IMG/VR virus record: IMGVR_UViG_3300046010_007214
Location: 1 to 31,023 of that record
DNA length: 31,023 bases
Strand: one strand, 5' to 3'
DNA from: a virus
Shown in pieces: positions 357 to 30,127 of the stretch (within the stretch, counting starts at the first letter, position 1; each line of letters begins with the position of its first letter). The notes under the pieces are model-generated. The model had not been told where the DNA came from. It did not search any database and was given only the letters and a program-made list of their open reading frames with translations. The translations under genes and the position numbers were made by a program.

Positions 357-519
357 ACTAGATGTTTATAAACAACTTCTAAACATAAGTTACAACAGCA
401 AAGGTTCATTATCATTTACTGAAGTGTATAATCTTCCTGTCTATGTAAGACGTATTTACATAGATGAGATACAGAGGTATGTAAAAGAAGAAAATCCTAA
501 GCAAAGTAAAAGAAGATAG
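310..519 (+). CDS. Tail assembly chaperone, C-terminal part in +1 frame (frameshift product or separate ORF)
   Basis: A 69-residue frame overlaps the previous gene by 47 nt and lies +1 relative to it. Its core (EVYNLPVYVRR followed by an IYIDEIQRYVKEE helix) looks like the natural continuation of the FFWPD chaperone family. An independent start at ATG 310 is possible: a purine-rich AGGGGAG lies about 14 nt upstream, but it is distant and the genome rarely uses Shine-Dalgarno sites. A ribosomal +1 (or -2) shift at the T7 run 330-336 would join both halves as ...QFF-GLTLSHKLDV.... This matches the well-known G/GT logic of tail chaperones upstream of tape measure genes. A sequencing indel in the homopolymer is the main alternative. 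Confidence 0.6.
   Translation: MLPSGYSFFGLTLSHKLDVYKQLLNISYNSKGSLSFTEVYNLPVYVRRIYIDEIQRYVKEENPKQSKRR
330..336 (+). promoter_or_regulatory. Candidate slippery site (T7 run) for +1/-2 frameshift
   Basis: Seven consecutive T are read as TTT TTT TGG in the upstream frame. A P-site tRNA-Phe on 333-335 can re-pair perfectly on 334-336 (+1) or 331-333 (-2), and both place the ribosome in the frame that encodes the C-terminal chaperone half. The zero-frame stop is only 18 nt downstream. No strong stimulatory hairpin is obvious by eye. Confidence 0.45.
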
Positions 520-580: not shown

Positions 581-796
581 ATGAACAAGCATAATTCAAA
601 AGTTTTGGAAGAGGGGTTTTTAGCGGGTATACTAGCATTATTCTCATTTGGTAAACAAGTGAAGATGTTACAGAGAATGTATACAGCAAGTAAAGACCCT
701 GAAATACAAGAGTTGATACATGATATAAAGTTCAATGAACAGCGTTACAAAGATGAGATAAGGAGATTAAAGAAGAAAAATCCTAATGTTAAGTAA
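581..796 (+). CDS. Small hypothetical protein between chaperone and tape measure
   Basis: A 71-residue protein with a short hydrophobic stretch near the N-terminus (GFLAGILALFSFG, about residues 12-24) followed by a charged helical region rich in Lys, Glu and Arg. Its stop codon overlaps the start of the tape measure gene (TAATG at 794-798), suggesting translational coupling. It is not recognised as a known family. Its position inside the tail cassette suggests a tail role, possibly membrane-associated or tape-measure-binding; this is inference from location only. Confidence 0.6.
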   Translation: MNKHNSKVLEEGFLAGILALFSFGKQVKMLQRMYTASKDPEIQELIHDIKFNEQRYKDEIRRLKKKNPNVK

Positions 797-5105: not shown

Positions 5106-5414
5106 ATGAACAGGTATAGAAAACTAGCATCGGAAATTAAGGATAAGTCTACTGAGAATGAAAGATATAGTTCTACATTTTATCCATCCATACCATTTAG
5201 ACAAAGCGATTTATATATATATTCTAGGAAATCAGATAGATTGGATTTATTAGCATTTGAATTTTACAAAGACCAAACATTATGGTGGGTTATAGCAAGA
5301 GCAAATGATTTAGGTAAAGGTAGTTTTACAGTTCCGTCAGGACGTAGACTTCGTATTCCATATCCTATAGATGAGTTAGAAATTCAAAAATTAATAGAAA
5401 ATGGACTTACTTAG
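5106..5414 (+). CDS. LysM-like baseplate protein (gp53/XkdP-type)
   Basis: A 102-residue protein with a clear LysM-like core: SDRLDLLAFEFYKDQTLWWVIARAND, then a VPSG..LRIP ending (about residues 43-90). This 'RLD.LA..fY.d..lWW.IA.aN......v..G..lrIP' pattern is typical of small myovirus baseplate or tail-hub proteins such as T4 gp53 and the LysM protein next to hub genes in PBSX-like phages. It sits between tape measure and a large hub-like gene, the same order as in PBSX-like tails. The last 14 nt overlap the next gene, indicating coupled translation. It probably links wedge or hub subunits rather than binding peptidoglycan. Confidence 0.65.
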   Translation: MNRYRKLASEIKDKSTENERYSSTFYPSIPFRQSDLYIYSRKSDRLDLLAFEFYKDQTLWWVIARANDLGKGSFTVPSGRRLRIPYPIDELEIQKLIENGLT

Positions 5415-7434
5415 GCAAAAATTTGATGATACTACATATAGTATAATGTCAACTCGGAAAAAGTTACATTATGATATGCGAAATGGAGCTGAAGACCTTA
5501 GTGGTGATTATAAACGTAGATTACCTGCGTGGGCTAGAATATCAATGCCAAACACTAAGTATCCGTCTCTTCAATCTAATTTAGGGGGGTATGAACAAAG
5601 CTATGACCATCAAGATACTAATAGACCTGTAAAGGCTATGCTAAAAAGTTTAAGTATAAAGAGAGTTACAGGAAAAGCTGAAAAAATGAATTTAACATTA
5701 GAGATAGATGTTGAATTCGAGGTATTTTCTTTTGATGAATTTGTTACTTATTCAAGGGCATATTTACGAAGAGAGAAGGATAGGAATCCGATAACGATAG
5801 AATGGGGTAATGGTTCTGATTATGGAGGTAGAGGTAGAGTATCCAATAAAATAGAGGGAGCGTATGTAATAGCGGGAGGTTATTCGAATACAGAATTAAA
5901 TACATATATATGTAGATTCAATGCGATTGGCCCTGCATCTGCTATAGCAAATCTTGACGTACTATCATGTGATGTATCTTATGTATTTCCTAATCAAGTA
6001 TTTAAGTATGGTAGTTTAGCATTCTCAGGTACTGAAAATGTTTCTAGCCTAATTACTAAGATAATGTATGACTTACAGGAAGGCGGTTCAAAGAGAACAT
6101 CTCAGTTCAGTGATGGGTACGAACCTAAATCAGTAGGAATGGCAGGAGGAAATCCTGTTGGAAAGATATACGAATATTTTCCCGGCAGTAATGCCTTCAT
6201 GGCATTCATATCCTCATTCATGAACAGCAAAGAAGAGAGAACAGGTATAGGCAGTGATGCTCACGAATATATATCCTTACAATATCTTGTAGATTTAATA
6301 AATAAAACTATAATTAAGGCAACTAATGATAAGTGTGGAAATAAATTTAAATTTAGAATTGGATTTGAAAAAGAGAATCCATACTCCTCAGTTCCTGCGA
6401 ATAAGCTAGGTAATAAATTTAGGTCAGGAGACCCTACGTCCGTATTATTTTTGGGGAGAGGTTCAGGAAATTATAAAAATAATGCAGGAAACGGAAAAGA
6501 TTTTGAAGTAGGAGGCTCATTCTTTAAGTCTAATTGTTTCTTAGGAGACCGTATTGCTCATAGATACATATTAATAAGTAGAAGATTTGTAGTAGATGAA
6601 TTACACCTAAAATTTCAAGAATTAAATACTGCTAGAGAAGAATCTACCAAGAACAAAGCAAATAAAACAGATAGAATCTCAGATGTTACATATAGCATTA
6701 AAGAATTCTTTGAAACTATTTTTTCGAGAATATCAAGATGTTCAGGTAATTTTGTTAATCTATCATTTAGATTACCTGACCCTACTAAAATAGACGATAA
6801 ATTTCAATTACAAGAATTAATTATTACAGATGCTTTAGCAGTTAGTGGTGCTCCGCATCCATTATTTGAGTTAGACCCTATAAAAGGTGATGGAAATTCT
6901 TTATCACTAGTTGTTGAAGGTAAATTACCAACAGATTTAGTTGATTTAGCATTAGTAACGGGCATACGAGAAGGTTCAGGCACTTCAGGTAAAATATCAG
7001 AAGACACCGAGTATCCTGACAATGTAGATAAGGAATACAAATCAATTATAAAAAAACTAACTTCAACAGATGAAAAAATAGGAGTATATGCTAGAATGGC
7101 TAAAAAAGATTTCAGTGAAGATACTATAGCAGATGCATGTTCATCATTGGCTGAATTTAAAAAAATACATAATGCTATAGAAGTTATTCGAGGTACGAGT
7201 ACTGATAATAAATTTAGTTTTATGGAATATTTTGATTTAGAAATGAAAATAGAAATGGAAGGGACATATCCTATCATAGCGGGTAATGTATTCACGTCAA
7301 CAAATTTACCTGATTTTGCAAGACCTAGCAACGGTATTGGGTTTGTTGTAATGGATGTTGAAGATAAAATAGATGCTACAGGAGTTTGGACAACATCTAT
7401 TAGCACGAGGGCATGTCCATATTTAAACATATAA
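5401..7434 (+). CDS. Large baseplate hub-like structural protein (putative)
   Basis: A 677-residue protein. Residues about 75-135 (KAMLKSLSIKRV... followed by alternating hydrophobic strands and a YLRREKDRNPITIEWG turn) look like the beta-rich start of a hub domain. The rest has many Gly/Ser-rich loops and no enzyme motif that I recognise. Its position after tape measure and a LysM-like gene corresponds to gp27/XkdQ-like hub genes. The assignment rests mainly on synteny and size; it could also be another large baseplate component. The ATG at 5401 overlaps the preceding stop by 14 nt; an in-frame ATG at 5446 is an alternative. Confidence 0.45.
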   Translation: MDLLRQKFDDTTYSIMSTRKKLHYDMRNGAEDLSGDYKRRLPAWARISMPNTKYPSLQSNLGGYEQSYDHQDTNRPVKAMLKSLSIKRVTGKAEKMNLTLEIDVEFEVFSFDEFVTYSRAYLRREKDRNPITIEWGNGSDYGGRGRVSNKIEGAYVIAGGYSNTELNTYICRFNAIGPASAIANLDVLSCDVSYVFPNQVFKYGSLAFSGTENVSSLITKIMYDLQEGGSKRTSQFSDGYEPKSVGMAGGNPVGKIYEYFPGSNAFMAFISSFMNSKEERTGIGSDAHEYISLQYLVDLINKTIIKATNDKCGNKFKFRIGFEKENPYSSVPANKLGNKFRSGDPTSVLFLGRGSGNYKNNAGNGKDFEVGGSFFKSNCFLGDRIAHRYILISRRFVVDELHLKFQELNTAREESTKNKANKTDRISDVTYSIKEFFETIFSRISRCSGNFVNLSFRLPDPTKIDDKFQLQELIITDALAVSGAPHPLFELDPIKGDGNSLSLVVEGKLPTDLVDLALVTGIREGSGTSGKISEDTEYPDNVDKEYKSIIKKLTSTDEKIGVYARMAKKDFSEDTIADACSSLAEFKKIHNAIEVIRGTSTDNKFSFMEYFDLEMKIEMEGTYPIIAGNVFTSTNLPDFARPSNGIGFVVMDVEDKIDATGVWTTSISTRACPYLNI

Positions 7435-10623: not shown

Positions 10624-11769
10624 ATGTCTAAAAAAAATCATAACTCGATAGAGGAAGATTTAGCTGACTATGTAAACGGTATATTTAAAAAATCTACTGA
10701 TAAGGTTGCCTATTTCTTAGACGGTTCAGATTCGAATCCATCTGATATATCAGATTGGGTATCCTCAGGGAATGATATGTTAGACATTGCTATTTCAAAT
10801 AGAAAAAACGGTGGTTTTCCTGTAGGGAGAATCACCGAAATTTCGGGAATGGAGGCATCAGGTAAATCATTATTGGCTTGTCATGCAATGAAATCAACCC
10901 AAGAAAAAGGTGGAATAGCTGTTTATATAGATACTGAGAATGCGGCAAGTGAGGAATTCATGAAAGCTATAGGTGTCAATGTGTCTAAGATGTTGTATTT
11001 ATCAATGTATACTGTAGAAGATATATTTGATACGATAGAACAAATGATTATCGAAATCAGGAAAAAAAATCCTGACATACTACTTACTATTGTTATTGAT
11101 TCCATAATGGGAGCAACTACCAAAGCAGAAAAAGCTATTGGATTTGATAAACAGGGTTGGAATACTAGTAAGTCCATAATCATATCTCAAGCAATGAGAA
11201 AGATTACAAATTATATAGGCAGACACAAAGTATGTCTTATAATTACTAATCAACTTAGAGTAAGATTGGGAGCATTGGGTGGTGACATATATACTACTTC
11301 AGGAGGAAAAGGTATACCATTCCACTCATCTGTTAGACTAAGACTAGAAGCAGGTAAAAAAGTATCTGTAGAAAAGAATGGTAAGAAACATCATATCGGA
11401 GTAGAGTCTGTTGCTCATGTGAAGAAGAACAGATTAGGGCCTGCCAATAGAAGTATTAGCTATAAAATCTATTATAATTCAGGTATGGACAACTACGGTT
11501 CATGGTTGGATGAGATGTCTAATAGAAAGATAGTTGATTTAAACGGTGCATGGTATACTTACAGGGTTGTAGATAAAGAAACAGGAGAGGTACTTGAAGA
11601 GATTAAATTTCAATCTAAGCAATTTTACGATAAGATTATATCAAATCCAAAATATAAGGAAATTGTTTATAATCATTTATGTGATGAAATGATATTCAAG
11701 TATAATATAAATGAAGCTTTGGATACCGACACTATAATAATTGAAGAGGATAACGAAGATGATTACTGA
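10624..11769 (+). CDS. uvsX: UvsX/RecA-like recombinase
   Basis: A 381-residue RecA-family ATPase. Walker A is GMEASGKS (residues 75-82) and Walker B is LLTIVIDSI with Asp159. They are followed by the loop-1/2 region and a conserved ITNQLRVRLGALGGDIYTTSGGKGIPFHSS stretch of the T4 UvsX/RecA core (family pattern: Q.R...G.......~GG.a..~~ss.R). The C-terminus is acidic (DNEDDY), as in many recombinases. It should form filaments on ssDNA coated by the upstream gp32-like protein and catalyse strand exchange for repair and recombination-dependent replication. The last 11 nt overlap the start of the nuclease gene. Confidence 0.92.
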   Translation: MSKKNHNSIEEDLADYVNGIFKKSTDKVAYFLDGSDSNPSDISDWVSSGNDMLDIAISNRKNGGFPVGRITEISGMEASGKSLLACHAMKSTQEKGGIAVYIDTENAASEEFMKAIGVNVSKMLYLSMYTVEDIFDTIEQMIIEIRKKNPDILLTIVIDSIMGATTKAEKAIGFDKQGWNTSKSIIISQAMRKITNYIGRHKVCLIITNQLRVRLGALGGDIYTTSGGKGIPFHSSVRLRLEAGKKVSVEKNGKKHHIGVESVAHVKKNRLGPANRSISYKIYYNSGMDNYGSWLDEMSNRKIVDLNGAWYTYRVVDKETGEVLEEIKFQSKQFYDKIISNPKYKEIVYNHLCDEMIFKYNINEALDTDTIIIEEDNEDDY

Positions 11770-12793
11770 TTCATTTGAGGAATTTAAAAAGTTTAAGGAG
11801 AGTCAATCCTCAGAAAATGTAGTAGAGGATAAGATTTTGATTGTGGACGGCTTGAATGTTTTTATTAGAAATTTTCAAGCTGTCCCTACATTAAACTATG
11901 AAGGAGACCATGTTGGTGGAATACTAGGATTTTTCAGAACTATATATAAAGCAATAGTAGACTATTCTCCAACGTCTATATATGTAGTATTTGATGGAAA
12001 AGGTGGAAGTGTTAGAAGAAGACATTTGCATAAAGAATACAAGCAAAAAGTATTAAGTGCGGGTAGTTTCAATAGATTTGCTGATACTAGAGGAATTCTA
12101 AATGAGAATGAATCTAAAAGAATGCAGTTAAATTTATTAGTTAATTCTCTATCAATAATGCCTGTTAAAACAATTATAATAGATTGTGTGGAGGCTGATG
12201 ATGTGATAGCATATCTATGTAAACAGGTTCTTAGTAAGGAATCTTCCAAAATTATTATGAGTTCTGACAGAGATTATTTGCAGTTAATAGATGAGAAAAC
12301 TTTTGTATATTCGCATGAGAAGAAACTATTAATATCGGAAGAATCTACTGTATCATTATATGGTTACACTCCATTAAATTACTTAACATATAGATGTTTT
12401 GTGGGTGACAGAACTGATAACATAGCAGGTGTAAAGCAAGTTGGAGAAGTAGGATTGAATAAGCATTTCAATTTAAATACAACAGACAAACACATAACTA
12501 TAGATGATATAGTAGAGCAAAGTAAGATACAGTACAGTGCGAATCCTAAAGCAAAGATATTCGAAAATATAGTAAATCAGAGTGAGATTGCCTATAGGAA
12601 TTACGAACTTATGCAATTGCTAACACCCAATATGTCAGGGGATATACAATCTAATATATTAGCAATTTCAAAGAGAGACTTACCTGAATTAGAAGTACAG
12701 AAGTTACAAACCATTTTTTTCCATATAGAATTATGTAAAAATGAACATGATTTTTTATTTTGGAAAAATTATTTAAAAAACTTAAAGAAATGA
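11759..12793 (+). CDS. 5'-3' exonuclease / flap endonuclease (T4 RNase H-like)
   Basis: A 344-residue FEN-family nuclease with the full set of acidic metal ligands: VDGLNVF (Asp30), FDGKGG (Asp79), EADDVIAYL (Glu145, Asp147, Asp148), SSDRDYLQL (Asp170, Asp172) and GDRTDNIAG (Asp217, Asp220), followed by a helix-hairpin-helix-like GVKQVGEVG segment. It would remove RNA primers and flaps from lagging-strand fragments. The start is ATG 11759, overlapping the uvsX stop; an in-frame TTG at 11741 is less likely. The stop overlaps the helicase ATG (AATGA at 12789-12793). Confidence 0.9.
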   Translation: MITDSFEEFKKFKESQSSENVVEDKILIVDGLNVFIRNFQAVPTLNYEGDHVGGILGFFRTIYKAIVDYSPTSIYVVFDGKGGSVRRRHLHKEYKQKVLSAGSFNRFADTRGILNENESKRMQLNLLVNSLSIMPVKTIIIDCVEADDVIAYLCKQVLSKESSKIIMSSDRDYLQLIDEKTFVYSHEKKLLISEESTVSLYGYTPLNYLTYRCFVGDRTDNIAGVKQVGEVGLNKHFNLNTTDKHITIDDIVEQSKIQYSANPKAKIFENIVNQSEIAYRNYELMQLLTPNMSGDIQSNILAISKRDLPELEVQKLQTIFFHIELCKNEHDFLFWKNYLKNLKK

Positions 12794-14154
12794 CAAACAT
12801 CATAAGTAGTTACGGTAAAGATTTCGAATACAAATTAATTGTATCGTTAATTGATAATACTGCATTCCTAACTCAAATTTCGGATATATTAAAGCCAACT
12901 TATTTTTTTAGTAATGCATCTCAGTGGATTATAAAAAGTACACTAGATTATTATTTTAAATATGGACAATCCCCATCAATTACTGTGTTCAGTACTGAAT
13001 TAGCTAAGTTGCCTGATACTCAAAGTCTACTCAAGCAAGAGATACAAGAGTATTTTAGGAGGGCTGAAATGTATGCTAATTCGAATGATTTGAAATATGT
13101 ACAAGAACAATCTGTAGATTTTTGTAGAAATCAAGAAATTAAAAGAGCAATATTAGAATGTGTAGAGTTACTGAATGCTTCGGATTATGATGGAGTAAAA
13201 TCTACATTAGATGCGGCATTAAAATCAGGTTACACAAGAGACATAGGTCATATATACAAAGACCAATTTGAAGAAAGATATAGTGAAAATTTTAGAAATA
13301 CAGTTACTACAGGTTGGGAATGTATTGATGATTTACTTCAAGGTGGTTTAGCACCCGGAGAATTAGGAATAATAATAGCACCCGCGGGAGCAGGAAAATC
13401 ATGGGTACTATCAGCTTTAGGTGCTAATGCATTAATTGCAGGAAAGACCGTAGTACATTATACATTAGAGTTAAATAAAATATATACTGCAAGGAGATAT
13501 GACAGTATTATCACAGGGCTAAACAATTCAAATTTATTACTACATAAGGATAAAGTTGAGGATAAGGTAAAAAATTTAAAAGGAACTTTAATAGTAGAAC
13601 AGTTTGCTGCAAAAACTGCTTCGATATTAACTATGAAATCTCATATCGATAGATGCATAGGACAATCAAATACACCTGATTTGATAATAGTAGATTATGC
13701 TGATTTATTAAAAGGTCATAATAAAGAGTTGAGATTTGAATTAAAGCAAATTTATGAGGGACTTAGAAGTTTATCAGCGGAATATAACTGTCCTATATGG
13801 ACAGCTTCTCAAACAAATAGGTCAAGCCTAGATTCAGAAATTATAGAAGCAGATAAAATATCTGAAGATTATAGTAAGATAGCTATTGGTGATTTTATAA
13901 TGTCATTATCACGAAGAGCTGAAGATAAAGTATTAGGTATTGGAAGATTTCATGTTATTAAAAATAGATTTGGAGCAGATGGTGTAACATTTCCGACAAA
14001 GTTTGATGCTTCTAATGGTAATATAGAAATATTCAGAGAAAATTCGGGAGATGCTATGAAAATTAAAAAAGACGTATCATCTTTAGATAGTTCGAAAAGA
14101 GCTGAAGAAAGAGAATCTTTTTACAATATGTTTGCAGAATTCAAAAATTCTTAG
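12790..14154 (+). CDS. Replicative DNA helicase (DnaB/T4 gp41-like)
   Basis: A 454-residue RecA-fold hexameric helicase. The N-terminal about 150 residues form an all-helical domain similar in size to gp41/DnaB N-domains. The ATPase domain starts at TTGWECIDDLLQGGLAPGELG and has Walker A APAGAGKS (197-204), a conserved TLE after strand 2, Walker B DLIIVDYADLL (Asp302), motif H3/Q-like WTASQTNR, and a late Arg-rich SLSRRAEDK region typical of this family. ATG 12790 overlaps the preceding TGA, which is preferred to an in-frame TTG at 12760. No separate primase gene was seen in the window. Confidence 0.88.
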   Translation: MTNIISSYGKDFEYKLIVSLIDNTAFLTQISDILKPTYFFSNASQWIIKSTLDYYFKYGQSPSITVFSTELAKLPDTQSLLKQEIQEYFRRAEMYANSNDLKYVQEQSVDFCRNQEIKRAILECVELLNASDYDGVKSTLDAALKSGYTRDIGHIYKDQFEERYSENFRNTVTTGWECIDDLLQGGLAPGELGIIIAPAGAGKSWVLSALGANALIAGKTVVHYTLELNKIYTARRYDSIITGLNNSNLLLHKDKVEDKVKNLKGTLIVEQFAAKTASILTMKSHIDRCIGQSNTPDLIIVDYADLLKGHNKELRFELKQIYEGLRSLSAEYNCPIWTASQTNRSSLDSEIIEADKISEDYSKIAIGDFIMSLSRRAEDKVLGIGRFHVIKNRFGADGVTFPTKFDASNGNIEIFRENSGDAMKIKKDVSSLDSSKRAEERESFYNMFAEFKNS

Positions 14155-14207
14155 TGAATATATAATATTTATAGTTGCTTGAAATCATAACAAGAATAAA
14201 CATTATC

Positions 14208-15191
14208 ATGAAAAAGAAAAACATATTTGAGAGAAGAGTAAATATTCTTCCATATGAATATCCATCTTTATTAAAATACAAAGATGCTATTAGACATTCG
14301 TATTGGATTGATACAGAATACAATTTCACTACAGATATAAATGATTACAAAGTTAACATATCTGATGTTGAGAGAAGTATCATTAAGAAAACTATGTTAG
14401 CTATATCTCAAATAGAGGTTAATGTAAAAACTTTTTGGGCTGACATGTATAAGAGAATGCCCATAACGGAAATTGGTGATGTTGGTATGACATTTGCCGA
14501 GAGTGAAGTTCGTCATAAAGATGCATATGCAAGACTACTTAGAATACTAGGATTAGAAGATGAGTTTAGAACTGTCGTTGAAATCCCTGCTATAAGAGAT
14601 AGGATAGCTTACCTTTCAAAATACTTAGATGGTACTCGTAGTAGAGATGATAAAATGTATACTAAATCTGTATTATTATTTTCACTGTTCATAGAGCATG
14701 TATCATTATTTTCACAATTTCTGATAATGATGTCTTTCAATAAAGAGAGGAATATATTTAAAGGAATTTCAAATGTTGTAGAAGCTACATCTAAGGAAGA
14801 GGATATTCATGGAAACTTTGGTGCTGAAATTATAAATATAGTTAAGGAAGAGAATCCTGAATGGTTTGATGATGAATTCAATAGTTTGATATACTCTGCA
14901 TGTCAAAAGGCATACAAATCTGAATGTAAAATATTAGATTGGATTTTTGAAGATGGAGAGTTAGATTTCTTACCAAAGGAAACTATTAAACATTTTATAA
15001 TGAATAGATTTAATAATTCTTTGAATAGAATTCAAATGGATAGTATATTTGAGGTTGATAAAGATTTATTGAAGAGTGTTCATTGGTTTGATTTAGAGAT
15101 TACGTCAACAAAGGAAGGTGACTTCTTTTACAAAAGACAAATAGATTATTCCAAAAAAACAAAATCTATAACTGAAGACGATTTATTTTAA
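14208..15191 (+). CDS. nrdB: Class I ribonucleotide reductase small subunit (NrdB)
   Basis: A 327-residue ferritin-like protein. The diiron/radical signature is clear: E100-x2-H103-x3-Y107 (AESEVRHKDAY), equivalent to E115, H118 and Tyr122 of E. coli NrdB. The later helix has the EEDIHGNFG ligand pair (E and H). The C-terminus ends acidic/hydrophobic (ITEDDLF), as expected for the tail that docks into NrdA. The start is ATG 14208; an in-frame TTG at 14175 exists, but only the ATG fits. The product generates the tyrosyl radical used by the NrdA encoded directly downstream. Confidence 0.92.
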   Translation: MKKKNIFERRVNILPYEYPSLLKYKDAIRHSYWIDTEYNFTTDINDYKVNISDVERSIIKKTMLAISQIEVNVKTFWADMYKRMPITEIGDVGMTFAESEVRHKDAYARLLRILGLEDEFRTVVEIPAIRDRIAYLSKYLDGTRSRDDKMYTKSVLLFSLFIEHVSLFSQFLIMMSFNKERNIFKGISNVVEATSKEEDIHGNFGAEIINIVKEENPEWFDDEFNSLIYSACQKAYKSECKILDWIFEDGELDFLPKETIKHFIMNRFNNSLNRIQMDSIFEVDKDLLKSVHWFDLEITSTKEGDFFYKRQIDYSKKTKSITEDDLF

Positions 15192-15209
15192 ACCAAACAA
15201 CTAAAAAAA

Positions 15210-16850
15210 ATGAATTATAAAGATTATTATTGGCTTAACGAAGATTCGAGAACATTCCTGTCAAGAGGTTATATATCAGAGTCTGCTGAAGAGAGAGTGA
15301 GAGAAATTGCAATAGCAGCTGAAAGCATACTCCAAATAGAAGGATTTGCTAATAAGTTTGAAAACTACATGTCTAAAGGTTTCTATAGTTTATCGACTCC
15401 TGTATGGATTAACTTTGCAAAAGATAAAGGATTACCCATATCATGTTATGGTTCTTATGTGGATGACAGTTTGTTTAGTATGCTTGAAAGTTCAACAGAG
15501 ATTGGCATGATGTCTAAGTATGGGGGAGGAACTTCGGCATATCTAGGAAATATTAGACCAAGAGGTTCTGACATAAGAACAGGCGGGAGGGCTGACGGGC
15601 CTGTCCATTACTCAAAACTATATGATACTGCTGTAGATGTCTGTAAACAATCAGAGGCTCGTAGAGGCGCATGTGCAGTATATCTACCTGTAGAACATAA
15701 AGACATATTAGATTTCCTAGATATTGCAACTGAGGGCAATCCTATTCAAAATTTACAGTATGGAGTTACTATCGGAGATTCTTGGATGGAGGAGATGAAG
15801 AATGGAGATTCAGATAAGAGAAAAGTTTGGGCGAAGATAATCCAAAGAAGAGTAGAGCTAGGATACCCTTACATAATGTTCAGAGATACTTCCAATAGAA
15901 ACAGTCCGTATGCTAACATTAAACATAAGTATTCTACAGAGATAGTAGCAAGTAATTTGTGTTCCGAAATTCAACTTCCATCTAATTCAGAAGAATCATT
16001 TGTATGTTGCATAGGTTCTATAAATTTGCTACATTGGGAGGAAATTGTAAATACAGATGCTATAGAAGTGTACGTACAATTCTTGAATGCTGTTATAAAT
16101 GAATTCATACAAAAATCTGAGAATTTAGATGGTATGAGAAGAGCTCATAATTTCGCTAAGAATCATAGAGCTATCGGGGTAGGTGTTTTAGGATACCATT
16201 CATTATTACAATCTAAGTTAGTAGCATTTGAATCATTAGCAGCTAAACAGATTAATCATGCTATATTTAAGAGATTAAAAGAAAAATGTGATAATGCATC
16301 AATGGAGTTGTACGAGAGCAACCCTCAGAAATATAAATGTATTAGAGATAAATATGCTAATACAACTTTGATTGCTGTAGCTCCTACTAAGTCAACAAGT
16401 TTCATATTAGGTCAGGTATCTATGAGTATACAACCTTATAAATCAAATTATTTTGTAAATGATTTAGCGAAGATAAAAACAGTATATAAGAATCCATATT
16501 TAGAAAAAGAATTACAAAAATATGGTTTAGATACTGATGAGATTTGGGATAGCATTATGAAGAAGGATGGTTCTGTCCAACATCTAGATTTTCCAACTAA
16601 AGAAGTTTTTAGAACATTTTCAGAGATAAGTCCTAAAGAAATTGTATTACAAGCTGCTCAGAGACAGAAGTATATTGACCAAGCACAGAGTTTAAATCTC
16701 TCGATAGACCCATCGGTATCTGCTAAGGATATAAATATGTTATATATGTATGCGCATGAGGAGGGTGTTAAAACTTTGTATTATCAATATAGTAAGAGTT
16801 CAGCACAGGAATTTTCTCGAAACATATTAGATTGCAAAAGTTGTGAGTAA
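15210..16850 (+). CDS. nrdA: Class I ribonucleotide reductase large subunit (NrdA), short form
   Basis: A 546-residue catalytic subunit, clearly shorter than the roughly 760 residues of E. coli NrdA. Key residues are present: Cys79 (LPISCYGSY) and Cys266/267 (FVCCIGSINL) as the candidate redox pair, NLCSEIQL with Asn249, Cys251 and Glu253 in the active site, a near-C-terminal YYQYSKS Tyr pair for radical transfer, and a terminal DCKSC pair (Cys542, Cys545). The N-terminal ATP-cone allosteric domain is missing, so dATP feedback inhibition of overall activity is probably lost (inference). It pairs with nrdB to supply dNTPs. Its end overlaps the next GTG start by 8 nt. Confidence 0.92.
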   Translation: MNYKDYYWLNEDSRTFLSRGYISESAEERVREIAIAAESILQIEGFANKFENYMSKGFYSLSTPVWINFAKDKGLPISCYGSYVDDSLFSMLESSTEIGMMSKYGGGTSAYLGNIRPRGSDIRTGGRADGPVHYSKLYDTAVDVCKQSEARRGACAVYLPVEHKDILDFLDIATEGNPIQNLQYGVTIGDSWMEEMKNGDSDKRKVWAKIIQRRVELGYPYIMFRDTSNRNSPYANIKHKYSTEIVASNLCSEIQLPSNSEESFVCCIGSINLLHWEEIVNTDAIEVYVQFLNAVINEFIQKSENLDGMRRAHNFAKNHRAIGVGVLGYHSLLQSKLVAFESLAAKQINHAIFKRLKEKCDNASMELYESNPQKYKCIRDKYANTTLIAVAPTKSTSFILGQVSMSIQPYKSNYFVNDLAKIKTVYKNPYLEKELQKYGLDTDEIWDSIMKKDGSVQHLDFPTKEVFRTFSEISPKEIVLQAAQRQKYIDQAQSLNLSIDPSVSAKDINMLYMYAHEEGVKTLYYQYSKSSAQEFSRNILDCKSCE

Positions 16851-17124
16851 AAAAGATAAGGAACTGAGGGAAGAAGATATGCTGATAGCTAATAGAGTTC
16901 CACCTGGCGATAGGTGGACTCTCATCGACCCTAAACATAACTCAACATCAGATGATGTAATAGAAGGTCTTGTAGAGACTCTTAGCGAGTATATGAGAGC
17001 TACTAACTTTAGTGGAGATTATAAGTTATCACCACTAAAAGGAAAATTATATGCAATTTATGAAAATTATGTGGAGATTGAGAAACCAAAACCAAAGAAA
17101 TATGATTTATATGGTGAGTTTTGA
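16843..17124 (+). CDS. Small hypothetical protein between nrdA and DNA polymerase
   Basis: A 93-residue, charged protein starting at GTG 16843, overlapping the nrdA stop. It has a central helical segment (DDVIEGLVETLSEYMRATNF) and a Lys/Pro-rich C-terminus ending in KKYDLYGEF. No Cys pair and no glutaredoxin or thioredoxin motif are present, so it is not a redox partner of NrdA by sequence. The function is unknown; the position suggests a role in nucleotide supply or DNA synthesis. Confidence 0.6.
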   Translation: MSKKDKELREEDMLIANRVPPGDRWTLIDPKHNSTSDDVIEGLVETLSEYMRATNFSGDYKLSPLKGKLYAIYENYVEIEKPKPKKYDLYGEF

Positions 17125-17143
17125 TTAGTTATAAAAAAAGCAT

Positions 17144-17803
17144 ATGGACAAAATATATAAAACTGTATTTACTAGAGGTGAATTTTTAGAATTATTTGAT
17201 TCTATAGAAGCAACTAATATAGTAGCTGTCGATACAGAAACTACAGGTATAGATGTTCATACCGATTCTATAATAGGGGCATCATTTTCAACTAAAATAG
17301 GTAATGGATATTACATACCTACTCAAGTATATGACTCTGAATCTGATAGTTTAAAGGAATGTTATATAGATAGTATACCTTCTAAGGATATACTTAAACT
17401 AATATTAGAAAAGATAAAGAAAGATAAAAAGAAAGTTGTAATGCACAATGCTTCTTTTGATACTTCAATAATAAATAATCAATACGGAATAGATTTGCTT
17501 CCTGAATTATGGATGGATACTATGTTAGCAGTTCACACAGTACAAGAAGAGGGTGCATTTTCTTTTGGAACTCCATTCGGATTGAAATCTATTGCTCAAA
17601 TGTATCAACAAGAACTAGGATTAAATATAGAAGATGAAGCAAATAAGGAGCAGATTGAATTGAAAGATAGTATCCATAAGAATGGAGGTTCAACAACCAA
17701 AAATAAATATCAAATCTATAAAGCAGATTTAGACATACTATCTAAATATGCAGCAGCAGATACTGATTTAACTCTTAGAGTAGCTAATCTTTTTTATGGT
17801 TAG
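17144..17803 (+). CDS. polA: DNA polymerase I family, 3'-5' exonuclease domain (ends at in-frame TAG)
   Basis: A 219-residue DnaQ-fold exonuclease with all three motifs: Exo I AVDTETTG (Asp30, Glu32), Exo II VMHNASFD (Asp106) and Exo III YAAADTD (Tyr202-x3-Asp206). The reading frame continues without interruption into the polymerase domain except for a single TAG at 17801-17803; translated through, the junction reads LFYG-stop-LHEEKLDKFFFEDEV and then the polymerase. That is the normal layout of a Pol I-type enzyme, where the exonuclease is followed by a linker helix and the 'P....ME..Gi..d' start of the polymerase domain. As written it would give a stand-alone proofreading subunit. Confidence 0.85.
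   Translation: MDKIYKTVFTRGEFLELFDSIEATNIVAVDTETTGIDVHTDSIIGASFSTKIGNGYYIPTQVYDSESDSLKECYIDSIPSKDILKLILEKIKKDKKKVVMHNASFDTSIINNQYGIDLLPELWMDTMLAVHTVQEEGAFSFGTPFGLKSIAQMYQQELGLNIEDEANKEQIELKDSIHKNGGSTTKNKYQIYKADLDILSKYAAADTDLTLRVANLFYG
17801..17803 (+). other. In-frame amber codon between exonuclease and polymerase domains
   Basis: The codons run GGT TAG TTA CAT GAG in one frame. Fifteen sense codons separate the TAG from the first in-frame ATG (17849), and these encode residues that fit a Pol I linker helix. TAG also ends seven other clear genes in this window (519, 5414, 14154, 19969, 24533, 28184, 30127), so a general reassignment of TAG is unlikely. Candidates are programmed readthrough, local amber suppression, a recent nonsense mutation, or a genuine split of the enzyme into two chains. 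Confidence 0.8.
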
Positions 17804-17848
17804 TTACATGAGGAGAAACTAGATAAGTTTTTTTTCGAAGATGAAGTA

Positions 17849-19462
17849 ATGCCTGTATATAAGGAAGTTACAATTCCAATGGAAAGACGTGGAATTCAAT
17901 TAGATATAGAATTGCTACATAAGACAAAGGATGAAATGTTGAATGTAATAAATGAAAAGAAAAATGAAGTAATATCTGAATTAAAAATTATTAAAGGAGT
18001 AAAAGATTGGATATTTGAGCAATCATATGTGAATAACTTCCCACCAAAAAATAGAGGTGTCTTTGCTAAAATGTTAGTTAAAAATGCTAATTTAAATTTA
18101 TCTTTAGATGCTAAAGGAGAAGTAAGATTGCTTAAGAAAGAAATAGAAAAGTTGGAAGATTCTCCGTACAAAAGATTCTTAATAGACCATAACAGTGACC
18201 ATGGAGTTCATGTATCAGAACTATCTAAAATAAGTTTAATATTATGGATAGATTCTAATAATGGAGATTTAATTAATATACAATCTAAAAAGCATTTATC
18301 TGAAATAGCTTTTAACTATTTAGGTTTAAAACCTATATCTAAAACTGATTCAGGAACGTCACAGTTTAATGATATTTTTATAGAGAGCATAAGTTCAAAA
18401 TATACATGGGCTACTAAACTTAGAGTTTACAATAAGTTAGTTAAGATATATTCAACGTATGTAGAAAGATTGTTAGAGAAGAATAAGAATGGTATATTCT
18501 ACCCGTACTTTAAACAGCATGGTACAGTATCGGGAAGGTATGGGAGTGATTTACAGCAGTTACCTAAACCTAAAGAGGAGGGCGATGATGACCCTATAGT
18601 ATTAGAATTCAACAATAGGGTAAGAGCATTTTTTAAGGTTAGAGATGGGTATAAGTTTATAGATTCAGATTATGAATCATTAGAGCCCCATATATTTGCT
18701 AGTATATCAAATGATGTTAATTTGCAAGAAATATTCAATAAAGGTCATGATTTCTATAGTACAGTTGCTATACGAACTGAAAAGTTAGAAGGTGTATCTG
18801 CTGATAAGAATGCTCCTAATTTTCTTAAAAAGATTGATGCTAACAAGAGACAGAAAGCTAAGGCATATGCTTTAGGTATTGCTTATGGTATGACAGGATT
18901 TGCATTGGCTAAGAGTTTGAATATTAAAAAAGCAGAGGGAGAGGAACTTAGAGATGCTTACTTGGAGGGATTCCCCGGTGTGGCTGATTGGATTCAAGCC
19001 TCAAAAAAAGAATTTGAAAGTACAGGAATGATACGTAACAAGTTAGGAAGAGTAAGACATCTATGGAGAGGGAAGAAAGTGTTCGATGAATATGGGGATA
19101 AAGTATTAGACTATGACCATAGAGATAAATTAGTAAAAAAATTGGGAGAAGAACGTGCTATATCACTATATAGAGATTTAAAGAATGCTTACAACTCAAG
19201 TTTAAATTTTCAAATACAATCATTAGCTGCATCTATAGTAAACAGAGCAGCATTGCACATAAACAGAGAATTAAGTAAGAGAGGTTCTAAAGGACAAGTA
19301 ATAGCTCAGATACATGACCAATTAATTGTAGAGATTGAACAAGACAGGATAGAAGAGTTTATTCCAATAGTAAAGTATATTATGGAAAATACAACTACCC
19401 TAGATGGAGTTACATTGAAAGCTCCACCCGAAATAGCTACAAATTTTTTAGATGGTCATTAA
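17849..19462 (+). CDS. polA: DNA polymerase I family, polymerase domain
   Basis: A 537-residue polymerase domain in the same frame as the exonuclease gene. Signatures are GTVSGRYGSDLQQLPKP (residues about 225-242), motif A SDYESLEPH with Asp274, motif B R334-x3-K338...Y346-G347 (AKAYALGIAYGMTG) and motif C IHDQLIVEI with Asp490. The Glu of canonical HDE is Gln491, and the residue matching E. coli Phe762 is Leu342. Both catalytic Asp and the O-helix Arg/Lys/Tyr are intact, so it should be an active replicative enzyme. Independent translation would begin at ATG 17849 and would lack the linker helix encoded by 17804-17848; readthrough of the TAG would give a 772-residue enzyme. Confidence 0.88.
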   Translation: MPVYKEVTIPMERRGIQLDIELLHKTKDEMLNVINEKKNEVISELKIIKGVKDWIFEQSYVNNFPPKNRGVFAKMLVKNANLNLSLDAKGEVRLLKKEIEKLEDSPYKRFLIDHNSDHGVHVSELSKISLILWIDSNNGDLINIQSKKHLSEIAFNYLGLKPISKTDSGTSQFNDIFIESISSKYTWATKLRVYNKLVKIYSTYVERLLEKNKNGIFYPYFKQHGTVSGRYGSDLQQLPKPKEEGDDDPIVLEFNNRVRAFFKVRDGYKFIDSDYESLEPHIFASISNDVNLQEIFNKGHDFYSTVAIRTEKLEGVSADKNAPNFLKKIDANKRQKAKAYALGIAYGMTGFALAKSLNIKKAEGEELRDAYLEGFPGVADWIQASKKEFESTGMIRNKLGRVRHLWRGKKVFDEYGDKVLDYDHRDKLVKKLGEERAISLYRDLKNAYNSSLNFQIQSLAASIVNRAALHINRELSKRGSKGQVIAQIHDQLIVEIEQDRIEEFIPIVKYIMENTTTLDGVTLKAPPEIATNFLDGH

Positions 19463-19520: not shown

Positions 19521-19772
19521 ATGGGAAAGATTTTAGGTTTAGATGGAAATTCTAAACAAATGAATGTAAACATAGACATCACTGAGCATCCTACAATAAA
19601 ATGTAAGTCTTGTGAAGGTATATTCTTTACTAATGTAATATTATTAAAGAAGATAAGTAAAATTGCTACAGGAAGCACTAACGACCAATTAGTACCTATT
19701 CAAGTATTGAGATGTGCAGATTGTTATGAAGTGTTAGAAGAATCAGTTTCAAATCCAAAAATTTTGCAATGA
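19521..19772 (+). CDS. Small zinc-ribbon-like protein
   Basis: An 83-residue protein with two CxxC knuckles, KCKSCEGIFF (about residues 28-37) and RCADCYEVL (about residues 63-71), spaced like a zinc ribbon, with a basic ILLKKISK stretch between them. Small double-CxxC proteins of this form recur in T4-like phages of various hosts near replication genes; their role is mostly unknown. It follows a promoter-like element, and its stop overlaps the next start (ATGA, 19769-19772). Nucleic-acid or protein binding through zinc is the likely role. Confidence 0.65.
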   Translation: MGKILGLDGNSKQMNVNIDITEHPTIKCKSCEGIFFTNVILLKKISKIATGSTNDQLVPIQVLRCADCYEVLEESVSNPKILQ

Positions 19773-19969
19773 GTAAAATAGAAGAATCTGTTATTACTAA
19801 AATTAGAGAGAGAGCAGATATTGGTAAAAATAAATACGGTGTTACTATGGAAAGGAATGATTTAAACATTATACAATGGTTAACACATCTCCAAGAAGAA
19901 CTTATGGACGCAGCTGTATATTTAGAAAAGGTAATACAAAGTAATGAATATAGAGGAGATAAAAACTAG
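19769..19969 (+). CDS. Small MazG-like (all-alpha NTP pyrophosphohydrolase-type) protein
   Basis: A 66-residue helical protein with the pattern IRERADIGKNKYGVTMER, then WLTHLQEELMDAAVYLEKV. The EELMDA core matches the E-E-x2-D metal-binding helix of MazG/dUTPase-like all-alpha pyrophosphohydrolases. At 66 residues it holds only about half of a typical MazG domain, so it may need to oligomerise or may act as a binding protein. It overlaps both neighbours and lies among DNA metabolism genes, consistent with a nucleotide-pool role. Confidence 0.55.
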   Translation: MSKIEESVITKIRERADIGKNKYGVTMERNDLNIIQWLTHLQEELMDAAVYLEKVIQSNEYRGDKN

Positions 19970-24050: not shown

Positions 24051-24533
24051 ATGAAAAGTAATTATGATGAAATATCTCCAATAACACATAATTTGAGTGT
24101 ATTGGTAGAACAGGACGATGCTACGGGACTTACGTCAAAAATATGTATGGATTCAGGTTATACAACAAATTCATTCCTTATTGATGGTTCTGAAACATTA
24201 AACAAGTTAGAAAGCAGTATTGCTAAAACAGCATTTAATTTTAGGGTGGTTGACGGAAATCGTAATGTTTGGATTCCATGTATGCAGGCCACTGATACGT
24301 CATCTATATATCCAATTCCTGATGACGTTGATGGTACAACATTTATGTGGCAGGTAACTCCTATAAAAAAATTAAGTGAAGATGAGTCTAAGAAATATCC
24401 TGACCCTAACAACATCGGAAAGTATTTAGAGAATTATATTGATTTTGAAAATTCTGTAAATTTCCCAAAGGATAAATTCACTGAAGCTTTCAAACATTTT
24501 GTTAATATATCTTATGAAAGTCTAAATAACTAG
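24051..24533 (+). CDS. Conserved-looking phage hypothetical protein
   Basis: A 160-residue protein with no recognised domain. Visible blocks are KICMDSGYTTNSFLIDGSE, VWIPCMQATDTSSIYPIPDD and a Trp-containing MWQVTPIKKLSEDE segment, followed by a helical C-terminus with several Phe. There is no membrane segment. It lies between two glycosyltransferase genes with 3-nt gaps on both sides, so it is co-translated with them. Proteins with this 'dm.sGyTT' style occur in T4-like phages as uncharacterised genes, but I cannot name a family. Confidence 0.6.
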   Translation: MKSNYDEISPITHNLSVLVEQDDATGLTSKICMDSGYTTNSFLIDGSETLNKLESSIAKTAFNFRVVDGNRNVWIPCMQATDTSSIYPIPDDVDGTTFMWQVTPIKKLSEDESKKYPDPNNIGKYLENYIDFENSVNFPKDKFTEAFKHFVNISYESLNN

Positions 24534-24536
24534 AAT

Positions 24537-25280
24537 ATGATAAGTTATTTAATTACAGTATGCAATGAACATGAAGAATTAGATAGATTACTTAAGTCTA
24601 TATTCCCTAAAGATGAAGATGAAGTAGTTATTCAATATGATACTAACCAAGTAACGTCTGAAGTTTTAGAGGTTATCGAAAGGTATGTTGAATTAAATTC
24701 TGATACTATAGTCCATGGAGAATCTTTTGATGGAGATTTCGCTAGGTATAAAAATGTAGCAAATTCACTATGTGAAAAGGATTGGATATTTCAGTTAGAT
24801 GCCGATGAATACCCTTCTAAAGATTTAGCTGAAAATATTACGGATATTATCCAATCAAATCCTGAGTCATTGGATTTAATATACATTCCAAGAGTAAATA
24901 CAGTTGATGGAATTACTATAGAACATATTAGGAAGTGGAATTGGAATATTAGCAGTGATGACTTAATACAGAACCATAGAGAAATAGAGAAATTTGATGA
25001 TAACTTTTTTATGCTTAAGCATTTTGATTTAGTAATATCTGAAAAGGAGATACAGGATAGATTAAGTATAATGTATAAAGAGCCTATCATAAATTTTCCT
25101 GATTATCAAGCAAGATTGTATAGGAATAAAGATACTATTCAATGGAAAGGTAAAGTTCATGAAACTGTCGTAGGAGCGTCTACAGTGTCTAGGCTTCCTT
25201 TAGATAAAGTTTATTGCTTATACCATCCTAAAAGTATTGATAGACAAGAAAAACAAAACGAATTATACAAAAGTTTATGA
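24537..25280 (+). CDS. GT2-type (GT-A) glycosyltransferase
   Basis: A 247-residue protein with a GT-A fold. The start MISYLITVCNEHEELDRLLKSI is the classic GT2 opening, DEVVIQYD lies in the nucleotide-binding region, and KDWIFQLDADEYP holds the metal-binding DxD (near residue 87). FPDYQARLYRNKDTIQWKGKVHE is the acceptor/helical part that follows in many GT2 members. The last 4 nt overlap the next gene (ATGA at 25277-25280). Donor and acceptor are unknown. Confidence 0.85.
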   Translation: MISYLITVCNEHEELDRLLKSIFPKDEDEVVIQYDTNQVTSEVLEVIERYVELNSDTIVHGESFDGDFARYKNVANSLCEKDWIFQLDADEYPSKDLAENITDIIQSNPESLDLIYIPRVNTVDGITIEHIRKWNWNISSDDLIQNHREIEKFDDNFFMLKHFDLVISEKEIQDRLSIMYKEPIINFPDYQARLYRNKDTIQWKGKVHETVVGASTVSRLPLDKVYCLYHPKSIDRQEKQNELYKSL

Positions 25281-26750: not shown

Positions 26751-26816
26751 TAACGAAATATAATTTTAAGATGGATTTTTTTTAAATTATATATATATAG
26801 TAAAAATAAAATACAG

Positions 26817-27365
26817 ATGAAATTAAGAAGATTTTTAACAACAATAACAAGAGAGTTATTGAACGAAAGGTTGGTGTTAGGTAAAAATGAAAGGGTTCAC
26901 CTTAGTAAAACACCTATTCAAAATATTGAAATTAAAAGTAAAAACAAAGATGTACTTGGAAAACCTAGTGGACTATGGTATGGTTTTGGAAGTAATTGGA
27001 TTAATTTCAAGAAGTATGGTGTTACTTGGGATGCTAAGGATAACACATCATTGAAAGATGTAATGAAGAGTGATGTCTATATTTATAAATTATATTTAGA
27101 TACGAGTAAAATTCTTACTTTGAACACTGAAGATTCATACATAGATTTCACAAGACAATATAGCACAAACACAAATTATCCATATAACATAGATTGGGAT
27201 TTAGTTTCCAAAAAATATAAAGGTATAGAATTTCCAAATTATGAAGATTTAAATGTTAGAGATTTACACCGAAAATCAAAAGAATATGAATGGATATATT
27301 CAATTGATATTAATTCAGGTTGTATTTGGGATGGTTCTGCGGTAAAAAAACATAGATTACTATAA
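26817..27365 (+). CDS. Inserted cassette gene, hypothetical; possible ADP-ribosyltransferase-like fold
   Basis: A 182-residue protein unrelated to its glycosyltransferase neighbours. The N-terminal basic helix is followed by VHLSKTPIQNIE, KPSGLWYGFGSNWINF, SDVYIYKLYLD, an IDWDLVSKKYKGIEF segment, and SIDINSGCIWDGSAV at the end. The H.S...i......kp.GlWys pattern and the D..SGCIW ending resemble a family of phage and bacterial proteins that I think adopt an ADP-ribosyltransferase-like fold, but this is weak recognition and no catalytic triad can be proven. The gene lies within a 710-bp unit bounded by 46-bp direct repeats, so it is likely a late acquisition (moron-like). It has its own AT-rich 66-nt leader. 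Confidence 0.55.
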   Translation: MKLRRFLTTITRELLNERLVLGKNERVHLSKTPIQNIEIKSKNKDVLGKPSGLWYGFGSNWINFKKYGVTWDAKDNTSLKDVMKSDVYIYKLYLDTSKILTLNTEDSYIDFTRQYSTNTNYPYNIDWDLVSKKYKGIEFPNYEDLNVRDLHRKSKEYEWIYSIDINSGCIWDGSAVKKHRLL

Positions 27366-27370
27366 AATTT

Positions 27371-27424
27371 ATGTGTTTTGTAAAAATTATTTTTGAGTTT
27401 TAAAACGAAACTCAAGTAACACAT
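27371..27424 (+). other. Nested hairpin at the right end of the inserted cassette
   Basis: An inner stem TTGAGTTT (27393-27400) pairs perfectly with AAACTCAA (27408-27415) across a 7-nt loop. An outer stem ATGTGTT (27371-27377) pairs with AACACAT (27418-27424). The structure lies between the cassette gene and the second direct repeat and overlaps the first bases of that repeat. It has no T-run on the 3' side, so it is not a classical intrinsic terminator; it may be an RNA structure that limits transcription or insulates the downstream start. Confidence 0.6.
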
Positions 27425-27460
27425 GTATGCGATTTAGTAAAACATAACTATAATGGATAA
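27415..27460 (+). repeat. 46-bp direct repeat, copy 2 (right flank of inserted cassette)
   Basis: A near-identical copy of 26705-26750. Here it is non-coding upstream sequence except for its last bases, which contain the ATG (27453) and first codons of the downstream glycosyltransferase. Translated in the old frame it would still read ...HNYNG-stop, showing that it derives from the end of the upstream gene. Confidence 0.95.
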
Positions 27461-28184
27461 TTCAGATATACTATTCGTAGTTCCGACTATAATGAATAGA
27501 CCTTTATACGAAATACTTAATTTGGAGAATTGCGCTAAAAATTTTCCTGAGTCAAGATTTTTATTTATATCTAACGTAGAGGATGAAAATTTCAGTAACT
27601 ACGAACCTACACTAGATAATATAGAGAAATATGTATCAGGAGTACAGTATTCTATAAGTGAAGCTATAAATAAAGGATATAGATTAAATCATTCAGAAGA
27701 GTATTTTTGCTTTTTACAATCAGATGTACATATAACAAAGGATAGTATAAATTCTATAAAGAACCTATGCAATGATGTTAATCTAAATGTTGGCGTTGTA
27801 GGTATAACTAAACATTCTAATTTTAATAGATTCAATAAAAGATTAGGTATGTATTATGGAATGGATATCCATAAAGTATTGTGGGCTGATGGTATCATGT
27901 TCTTTAAGATGTCTATGTTTGATAGCATTGGATTATTTGATACCTCATATTTTGGAGATAAGGAGAGTCAAGATTTTTGTTATAGAGCCCATGACTCAGG
28001 ATACAATAATCTATTTGTTGAATCTTGTACAGAAAATCATAGATGGATTCATAATTCAATAACATTTTCAGAGAAATCTAAAACTGATAATTCTAATTTT
28101 AGAAAATTAGTCACTGAATCAAGAAATATATTTGCAAAAAAATGGTACGAATGGGAAGACAGACAAACACATTTATTTGTGTAG
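27453..28184 (+). CDS. GT-A (GT2-like) glycosyltransferase
   Basis: A 243-residue protein. SDILFVVPTIMNRPLYEIL opens the fold. FCFLQSDVHITKDSI has a DxD-like SDVH at the expected place (near residue 90). VLWADGIMFFKMSMFDSIGLFDTSYFGDKESQDFCYRAHDSGY is the acceptor-side helix with an E/D pair typical of GT2 enzymes ('G.fde..F.....D.~~r....G'). The start codon lies inside the second 46-bp repeat. The 3' end overlaps the following gene by 43 nt. Confidence 0.78.
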   Translation: MDNSDILFVVPTIMNRPLYEILNLENCAKNFPESRFLFISNVEDENFSNYEPTLDNIEKYVSGVQYSISEAINKGYRLNHSEEYFCFLQSDVHITKDSINSIKNLCNDVNLNVGVVGITKHSNFNRFNKRLGMYYGMDIHKVLWADGIMFFKMSMFDSIGLFDTSYFGDKESQDFCYRAHDSGYNNLFVESCTENHRWIHNSITFSEKSKTDNSNFRKLVTESRNIFAKKWYEWEDRQTHLFV

Positions 28185-28843: not shown

Positions 28844-29495
28844 TCTTAAATTTACAATAAGTTCACATAAGAATTTTTATGATAAGACTTTAAATGTACT
28901 AGTACCAAGTCTACTAGATTCAGGTATTCCAAATAATGATATATATTTTTTTGTAGGAGGGTATGATGTATATGAAAGTATACCTAATGAATATAATATA
29001 AACCTATATAAAGCATCACATAATTCTATAGATTTTACAGGTTTAATATCAGTAATAGATTTGACTACTAAAGCAGACTATTGGTTTTTATGCCATGATA
29101 CTTGTAGAGTAGGTAGTAAATTCTATGATAGTATAAAAAATAATAACTTCAATACAGATACTATTAGATTAACTTCTGAAAATAGAAGTATGAATATAGG
29201 AGCATATAAACAAAGTTACATATATAGTATTAAAGAGAAAATACTTTCTTATAGAGGCAGCTCAAGTGCTGAATATAACATACAGAAATTAAAAAAAAGA
29301 TTGATAGATGAGGAGGATTCATTACTCAAATCAGATAGCATAGGAAATTTTAATAAGAGTCAAAGAAAGGTAATAGATTCTAACAACATATACGATAGCA
29401 ATGTAAGAAGAATCACAGAATATTTTCCCGATATAGATTTTTACAAGATGAAATCAAATTGGAAACCCAAAGAAGAGTACGAACTAAATATATAA
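28833..29495 (+). CDS. Putative GT-A glycosyltransferase-like protein
   Basis: A 220-residue protein opening with KFTISSHKNFYDKTLNVLVPSLLDSGIPNNDIYFFVGGYD, a strand-helix-strand layout like other phage glycosyltransferases of the GT-A type. WFLCHDTCRVG provides a possible D.x metal site, but a clean DxD is absent. The second half is Lys/Ser/Asn-rich and less typical. It starts inside the end of the previous gene (11-nt overlap). It may be a diverged or inactive family member. Confidence 0.55.
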   Translation: MNVNLKFTISSHKNFYDKTLNVLVPSLLDSGIPNNDIYFFVGGYDVYESIPNEYNINLYKASHNSIDFTGLISVIDLTTKADYWFLCHDTCRVGSKFYDSIKNNNFNTDTIRLTSENRSMNIGAYKQSYIYSIKEKILSYRGSSSAEYNIQKLKKRLIDEEDSLLKSDSIGNFNKSQRKVIDSNNIYDSNVRRITEYFPDIDFYKMKSNWKPKEEYELNI

Positions 29496-29497
29496 TA

Positions 29498-30127
29498 ATG
29501 AACGAAATTAACAAAAGTATTTACAACAATTTAGAATTACTTCCTGAAGATTTACAGGGTTGGAATGGAAATAGTAAGGTATTTAAACAACTTATAGACG
29601 CTGTTAATCCAAAAGTAATTATAGAAGTTGGAACTTGGAAAGGACTGTCTGCAATTACAATGGCAGAGCATATAAAACATACCAATAAATCCACAAAGAT
29701 ATATTGTGTTGATACTTGGTTAGGTGCTATAGAATTTTGGAGTTCTCACAAAAGCACTCCTGAAAGAGATTTGTTACTAAAGAATGGATATCCTAATATA
29801 TATTATCAATTTTTAAGTAATGTAGTTCATAGAAAAGTAGAGGATATCATAATACCATTTCCAAATACATCCTACATAGGATATTTATATTTTAAATCAC
29901 AAAATATAAAAGCAGATATGATATACATAGATGCATCTCATGATGAATTTGATGTGTACAATGATATTAAACATTATATGGAAATATTAAATACTAATGG
30001 AGTAATCTTCGGGGATGATTATAAAAGTTGGGAAGGCGTAAAAAAAGCTGTAGATAGGTATTCTTATGAAAATGATTTAGATGTTCAATTAGCAGAAAAT
30101 AATTTTTGGGTTATAAATAAAAAGTAG
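29498..30127 (+). CDS. Class I SAM-dependent methyltransferase (Methyltransf_24-like)
   Basis: A 209-residue protein from ATG 29498, two nt after the previous stop; an upstream in-frame ATG at 29459 would overlap that gene. VIIEVGTWKGLSAITMAEHI is motif I (glycine-rich SAM loop, slightly altered), IYCVDTWLGA holds the acidic ribose-binding residue, DMIYIDASHDEFDVYNDI is the motif IV/metal-binding block, and NGVIFGDDYKSWEGVKKAV completes the Methyltransf_24 pattern. Such enzymes usually O-methylate sugars or small molecules in glycan gene clusters, so it may cap or decorate the glycan made by its neighbours. Confidence 0.82.
   Translation: MNEINKSIYNNLELLPEDLQGWNGNSKVFKQLIDAVNPKVIIEVGTWKGLSAITMAEHIKHTNKSTKIYCVDTWLGAIEFWSSHKSTPERDLLLKNGYPNIYYQFLSNVVHRKVEDIIIPFPNTSYIGYLYFKSQNIKADMIYIDASHDEFDVYNDIKHYMEILNTNGVIFGDDYKSWEGVKKAVDRYSYENDLDVQLAENNFWVINKK

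Follow-up and report, generated by a model that had tools for sequence, protein, structure and literature searches.

Organisation of the polymerase locus

The window, meaning the whole 31,023-nucleotide stretch of viral DNA analysed here, carries on its forward strand a family-A DNA polymerase frame (17144–19462) whose sole interruption is a single in-frame TAG at 17801–17803. The part before the TAG (17144–17800) holds the 3'-5' exonuclease domain, with a Pfam match to DNA_pol_A_exo1 (PF01612) at residues 5–215 (E 3e-16). The part after it (17804–19462) ends in TAA and comprises a putative thumb region and the polymerase domain, matched by DNA_pol_A (PF00476) at residues 153–548 of this part (E 5e-61), with few amino-acid differences from relatives. 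PHROGs agree with Pfam, placing the exonuclease before the TAG and the family-A polymerase domain after it. PF01612 followed by PF00476 in one frame characterises a family-A DNA polymerase with a 3'-5' exonuclease, and this order is found both across the two window parts and in the intact protein of the close relative L003. The TAG is codon 220, five codons beyond the end of the exonuclease match, confirming the original prediction that it splits such a polymerase between its two domains. By a hand count on a phmmer alignment, it falls near residue 192 of the Klenow chain 1d9d.

The first in-frame ATG after the TAG lies at 17849–17851, 45 bases downstream. It encodes the conserved Met of an EVMP motif and probably lies within the protein instead of being an evolved start. 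The 15 intervening codons encode LHEEKLDKFFFEDEV and, as had been noticed beforehand, resemble a linker although no start codon precedes them. Their polymerase-like character reflects the fact that the relatives carry one unsplit polymerase gene. Upstream, a replication block spanning 11741–16850 precedes the polymerase and consists of a separate 5'-3' exonuclease (11741–12793), a DnaB-like helicase (12760–14154), and the small and large subunits of ribonucleotide reductase (14175–16850).

The stop position in related phages

A total of 23 IMG/VR loci related to the window polymerase were found, and the 18 that cover the linker were read. L019–L023, which are 24–25% identical and match only query residues 194–530, were left out of the codon reading. 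The 18 loci are not independent samples, as L001–L005 are alike in the linker stretch, as are L007, L008, and L016, and likewise L010 and L018. All 18 have a sense codon at the place of the TAG and a frame open through it, the frame of L016 stopping further on at its contig end. The codon is AAG in the six nearest relatives (98–99% identical) and in L009 and L017, AAA in L007, L008, and L016, and AGG in L010 and L018. Elsewhere it is GTC (L011), GTA (L012, L015), ATA (L013), or GAA (L014). The residue at this place therefore varies (K, R, V, I, E), whereas the FFF and EVMP just after it are identical in all 18 relatives and in the Flavobacterium phage vB_FspM_immuto (Immutovirus).

The family-A polymerase of vB_FspM_immuto, one of four records aligned, is the same exonuclease–polymerase gene. 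It has FFFEDEVMP in common with the window and is 49.6% identical over residues 1–537 of the second ORF. Unlike the window gene, it is unbroken, encoding 777 aa with no stop and with Val at the TAG place. The arrangement that would have spoken against an interrupted gene, with two unlinked genes in close relatives, is not seen, as immuto and all 18 loci read are unbroken at this place.

The stop allele was not found in an exact search of IMG/VR, a scan that did not include the window's own record and perhaps very near ones, and another copy in records outside the scan could have been missed. A 17-base pattern allowing either allele occurs at 18 places in IMG/VR. Six are polymerase loci on the contigs of L001–L006, all with the sense codon, and 12 lie outside the gene, three of these having the T letter. 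A megablast search using 24,000 of the window's 31,023 bases found no close relatives among named phages, and a search of genome contigs gave five loci at 27–32% identity and no close copy.

Private substitutions across the window

The window was compared with the six contigs that carry L001–L006 (G001–G006), of which G006 is more distant. Aligned pieces are 97.5–98.9% identical to the window in the other five contigs, except for two lower pieces in the variable gene at 796–4551 (94% in G001; 91% over 397 bases in G004), and 91–95% identical in G006. A substitution was counted as private to the window when at least three of the six relatives cover the position and all of these agree against the window. 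There are 92 such substitutions (64 synonymous, 21 missense, 6 intergenic, and 1 nonsense), the nonsense change being the TAG at 17801–17803. Without G006 the count is 168 (117 synonymous, 36 missense, 14 intergenic), with the same single nonsense change. Compared with the five nearest relatives, the TAG base is the only private substitution within 16585–18135, flanked by others at 16584 and 18136. No private substitution lies between the stop and 18136, and hence no new start has been created for the second part.

No gene-breaking indel private to the window was found in the aligned stretches. Without G006, 102 of the 168 private changes are synonymous transitions. The private transversions comprise 17 missense to 15 synonymous plus the nonsense change, compared with 74 to 55 in G001, and a generally error-prone contig was rejected as there is no missense excess relative to G001. 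The accuracy of the contig elsewhere in the aligned stretches argues against a generally error-rich assembly and is compatible with a real mutation. A chimeric join at the stop was also rejected, as private differences become frequent only from 18136 onwards and not at 17801.

Other differences between these contigs were observed along the window. Inside the ribonucleotide reductase small-subunit gene, G006 (L061 9593–11495, against window 14497–14504) has about 890 extra bases; no such insert appears in the alignments of the window with the other five relatives. This insert, which we take to resemble an intein, begins CHGEGTEILTLKGW and ends VLISGN before SEVRHKD, with a frame break near its end. 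At 15202, G001–G005 have an intergenic base that both the window and G006 lack, so its absence is not private to the window. Within ORF 796–4551 (1251 aa, no Pfam match), the stretch 2900–3630 is strongly divergent between phages that are otherwise about 98% identical, and alignments break at 3125–3334 in G002, G003, and G004. The stretch 26752–27414, which holds ORF 26817–27365 (no Pfam match), is missing from the G001 and G006 alignments and present in G003 and G005. The TAA (7432–7434) ending ORF 5401–7434 is TCA in G001 and G006, with the G001 frame only one codon longer.

Constraint and chance

Between the window and G003, the polymerase part shows 23 synonymous and 5 non-synonymous differences, a ratio of rates of 0.05. 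Between the intact G003 and G001, 28 synonymous and 5 non-synonymous codons differ. Judged from these comparisons, constraint on the polymerase part appears not visibly relaxed in the window and similar among intact copies. Retained constraint would follow from a very new stop, from an error, or from continued production of the protein, and does not separate these cases.

The position of the stop was set against chance using the intact L003 gene. Among its 6,948 single-base changes, 417 give a stop, and 11 of these one-base stops lie no more than 10 codons from the domain edge, set at residue 217. As about 3% of one-base stops land so close, the position needs no special explanation.

TAG usage and suppressor tRNAs

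TAG ends seven other ORFs of the window (310–519, 5106–5414, 12760–14154, 19769–19969, 24051–24533, 27453–28184, and 29459–30127). The relatives covering each of these (two to six of the six) keep a stop there, either TAG or, for one ORF in G006 and another in both G001 and G006, TAA. This bears out the view that TAG is a normal stop in at least seven genes of the window. The many in-frame TAGs and the loss of TAG as a terminator that mark a recoded genome are not seen in this 31-kb record.

One codon beyond ORF 24051–24533, which has no Pfam match, ORF 24537–25280, a family 2 glycosyltransferase, begins in the same frame with ATG. The TAG of the first ORF is kept in all five covering relatives, and we take the two ORFs to be neighbouring genes. 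The TTG start listed for ORF 29459–30127 is doubtful, as the fourth codon is a stop in G001 and G006.

No tRNA genes were found in the window, the 18 relative loci, or the whole records of 17 relatives, all of which are fragments. Relaxing the search to E up to 10 also found none in nine such fragmentary records including the window's, while across the standard and relaxed searches 14 of 14 control genomes gave matches. A suppressor tRNA encoded by the phage, which the original prediction had proposed looking for, is not seen in these fragments, and one may lie beyond them or in the host.

Readthrough, split polymerase and recoding as unlikely readings

Under functional readthrough or suppression, the lineage would carry the TAG, with both a lone exonuclease and a full polymerase produced through leaky termination or a host suppressor tRNA. 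The part after the TAG is indeed little changed in amino acids (the comparison with G003 above), yet intact relatives are similarly constrained and the constraint may predate the stop. RNA folding also gives this explanation some support. A 120-nt stretch containing the TAG folds more stably than any of its 200 shuffled versions (z −3.5), and in a scan of the gene the two stretches holding the TAG have the lowest z of 37 (−3.1 and −3.2, 60 shuffles each). Among the 12 sequences folded, window included, relatives with the sense codon fold less strongly, with z of −2.1 in L001 and L003 and −1.3 in L006.

Much of this fold is nevertheless present in relatives without the stop. The stop-free relatives L001, L003, L009, L012, and L017 also form the hairpin that follows the stop, so a readthrough-stimulating structure was rejected, and we read the hairpin as a consequence of the codons of EE..FFF. 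The stem at the stop itself is absent from the minimum-energy structures of all eight more distant relatives folded, although the L013 centroid has an 8-pair stem at about the TAG place. Programmed readthrough is marked by a stop conserved among relatives, and here it is absent from all 18 read. With no tRNA found in the window or the 17 relatives' fragmentary records, and with TAG terminating seven other ORFs, functional readthrough is very unlikely.

The stem at the stop is an imperfect inverted repeat (17780–17807, forward strand; arms 17780–17789 and 17798–17807) in which the changed base now pairs, a weak feature found post hoc. Of 415 possible one-base stops, 13 would fall in a stem of equal or greater length when G-U pairs are allowed, and 139 when only Watson-Crick pairs are counted. 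A template-switch origin of the TAG change in this quasi-palindrome is a weak, post hoc hint and suggestive at most. There is only a slim chance that the stop is a real amber allele at the exonuclease–polymerase boundary, circulating in this lineage, tolerated through readthrough or a host suppressor and representing an early step towards a polymerase split or amber tolerance, which may stem from template switching here as one mismatch became a pair.

A polymerase split into two genes, with the second half restarting at ATG 17849 and the two proteins assembling, would fit a stop at a domain edge with an in-frame ATG 45 bases later. The stop is, however, accompanied by no private change able to create a start or ribosome site, and the ATG is a conserved internal Met. 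A restart there would remove the 15 residues that include FFF and the EV of EVMP, which all 18 relatives read and immuto possess, and none of these 19 is split at the TAG place. No report of a family-A phage polymerase split here was found among the literature matches listed, a non-exhaustive set of titles and abstract openings. Such a split is highly improbable.

Amber or opal recoding in crAss-like phages likewise places in-frame stops in phage genes (PMC7886860). In the available text of that source, family-A polymerases and amber recoding both occur in these phages, suppressor tRNAs and recoding are not always found together, recoding is reported even where no tRNA was detected, and one genome is presented as beginning to build up TAGs. 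The cases in this text are mainly multi-gene, mostly involving late genes and often with suppressor tRNAs (PMC7886860), whereas the window has one affected gene in one record and no tRNA found. Phage-wide TAG recoding, or its beginning, can practically be dismissed, as the TAG at 17801–17803 is the only private nonsense change in the aligned stretches, no tRNA was found in these fragmentary records, and the remaining TAGs close ORFs in which the covering relatives retain a stop, with TAA in place of TAG in some relatives for two of these.

Origin of the stop and its consequences

Among the records examined, only the window carries the stop, with no other private change nearby and with the relatives intact. 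Very probably it is a single-base change confined to one record, in an ordinary single-gene phage polymerase, and either a miscall or a recent nonsense mutation. On this reading, a lysine codon of an ordinary family-A polymerase gene appears as a stop, through one base, in a single metagenome record, either because the consensus base was miscalled or because the phage lineage sampled very recently acquired a nonsense mutation. We infer about even odds between the two. Of the three origins originally proposed, readthrough, suppressor use, and recent nonsense change, only the last stands, alongside the assembly error that had been named as its refutation. Readthrough or suppression as a feature of the phage is not supported, given the 18 of 18 sense codons, the lack of a tRNA in the records searched, and the use of TAG to end other ORFs.

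A comparable situation is described in bacteria, where genes with in-frame stops can remain under purifying selection, placing a stop inside a constrained frame (PMC7918605). Many of those stops are evolutionarily conserved according to the available text, while the window's is private among the records examined. The same text also makes the case that nonsense substitutions of a passing kind are fairly frequent (PMC7918605), and the window's stop belongs at most to this group.

If the stop is real, we infer that the enzyme would be truncated after its exonuclease domain and defective unless rescued. For a genuine nonsense allele in a replication gene to appear as the consensus, some form of rescue would be required, which may come from low-level readthrough, a host suppressor, or a co-infecting intact phage. 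Neither a miscall nor a recent mutation makes the stop a feature of the phage group. As a caution, a stop that falls on a domain boundary may give an impression of design, yet about 3% of one-base stops in this gene land so close by chance. A private stop in a single metagenome record does not warrant annotation of this locus as a split polymerase or as recoding.
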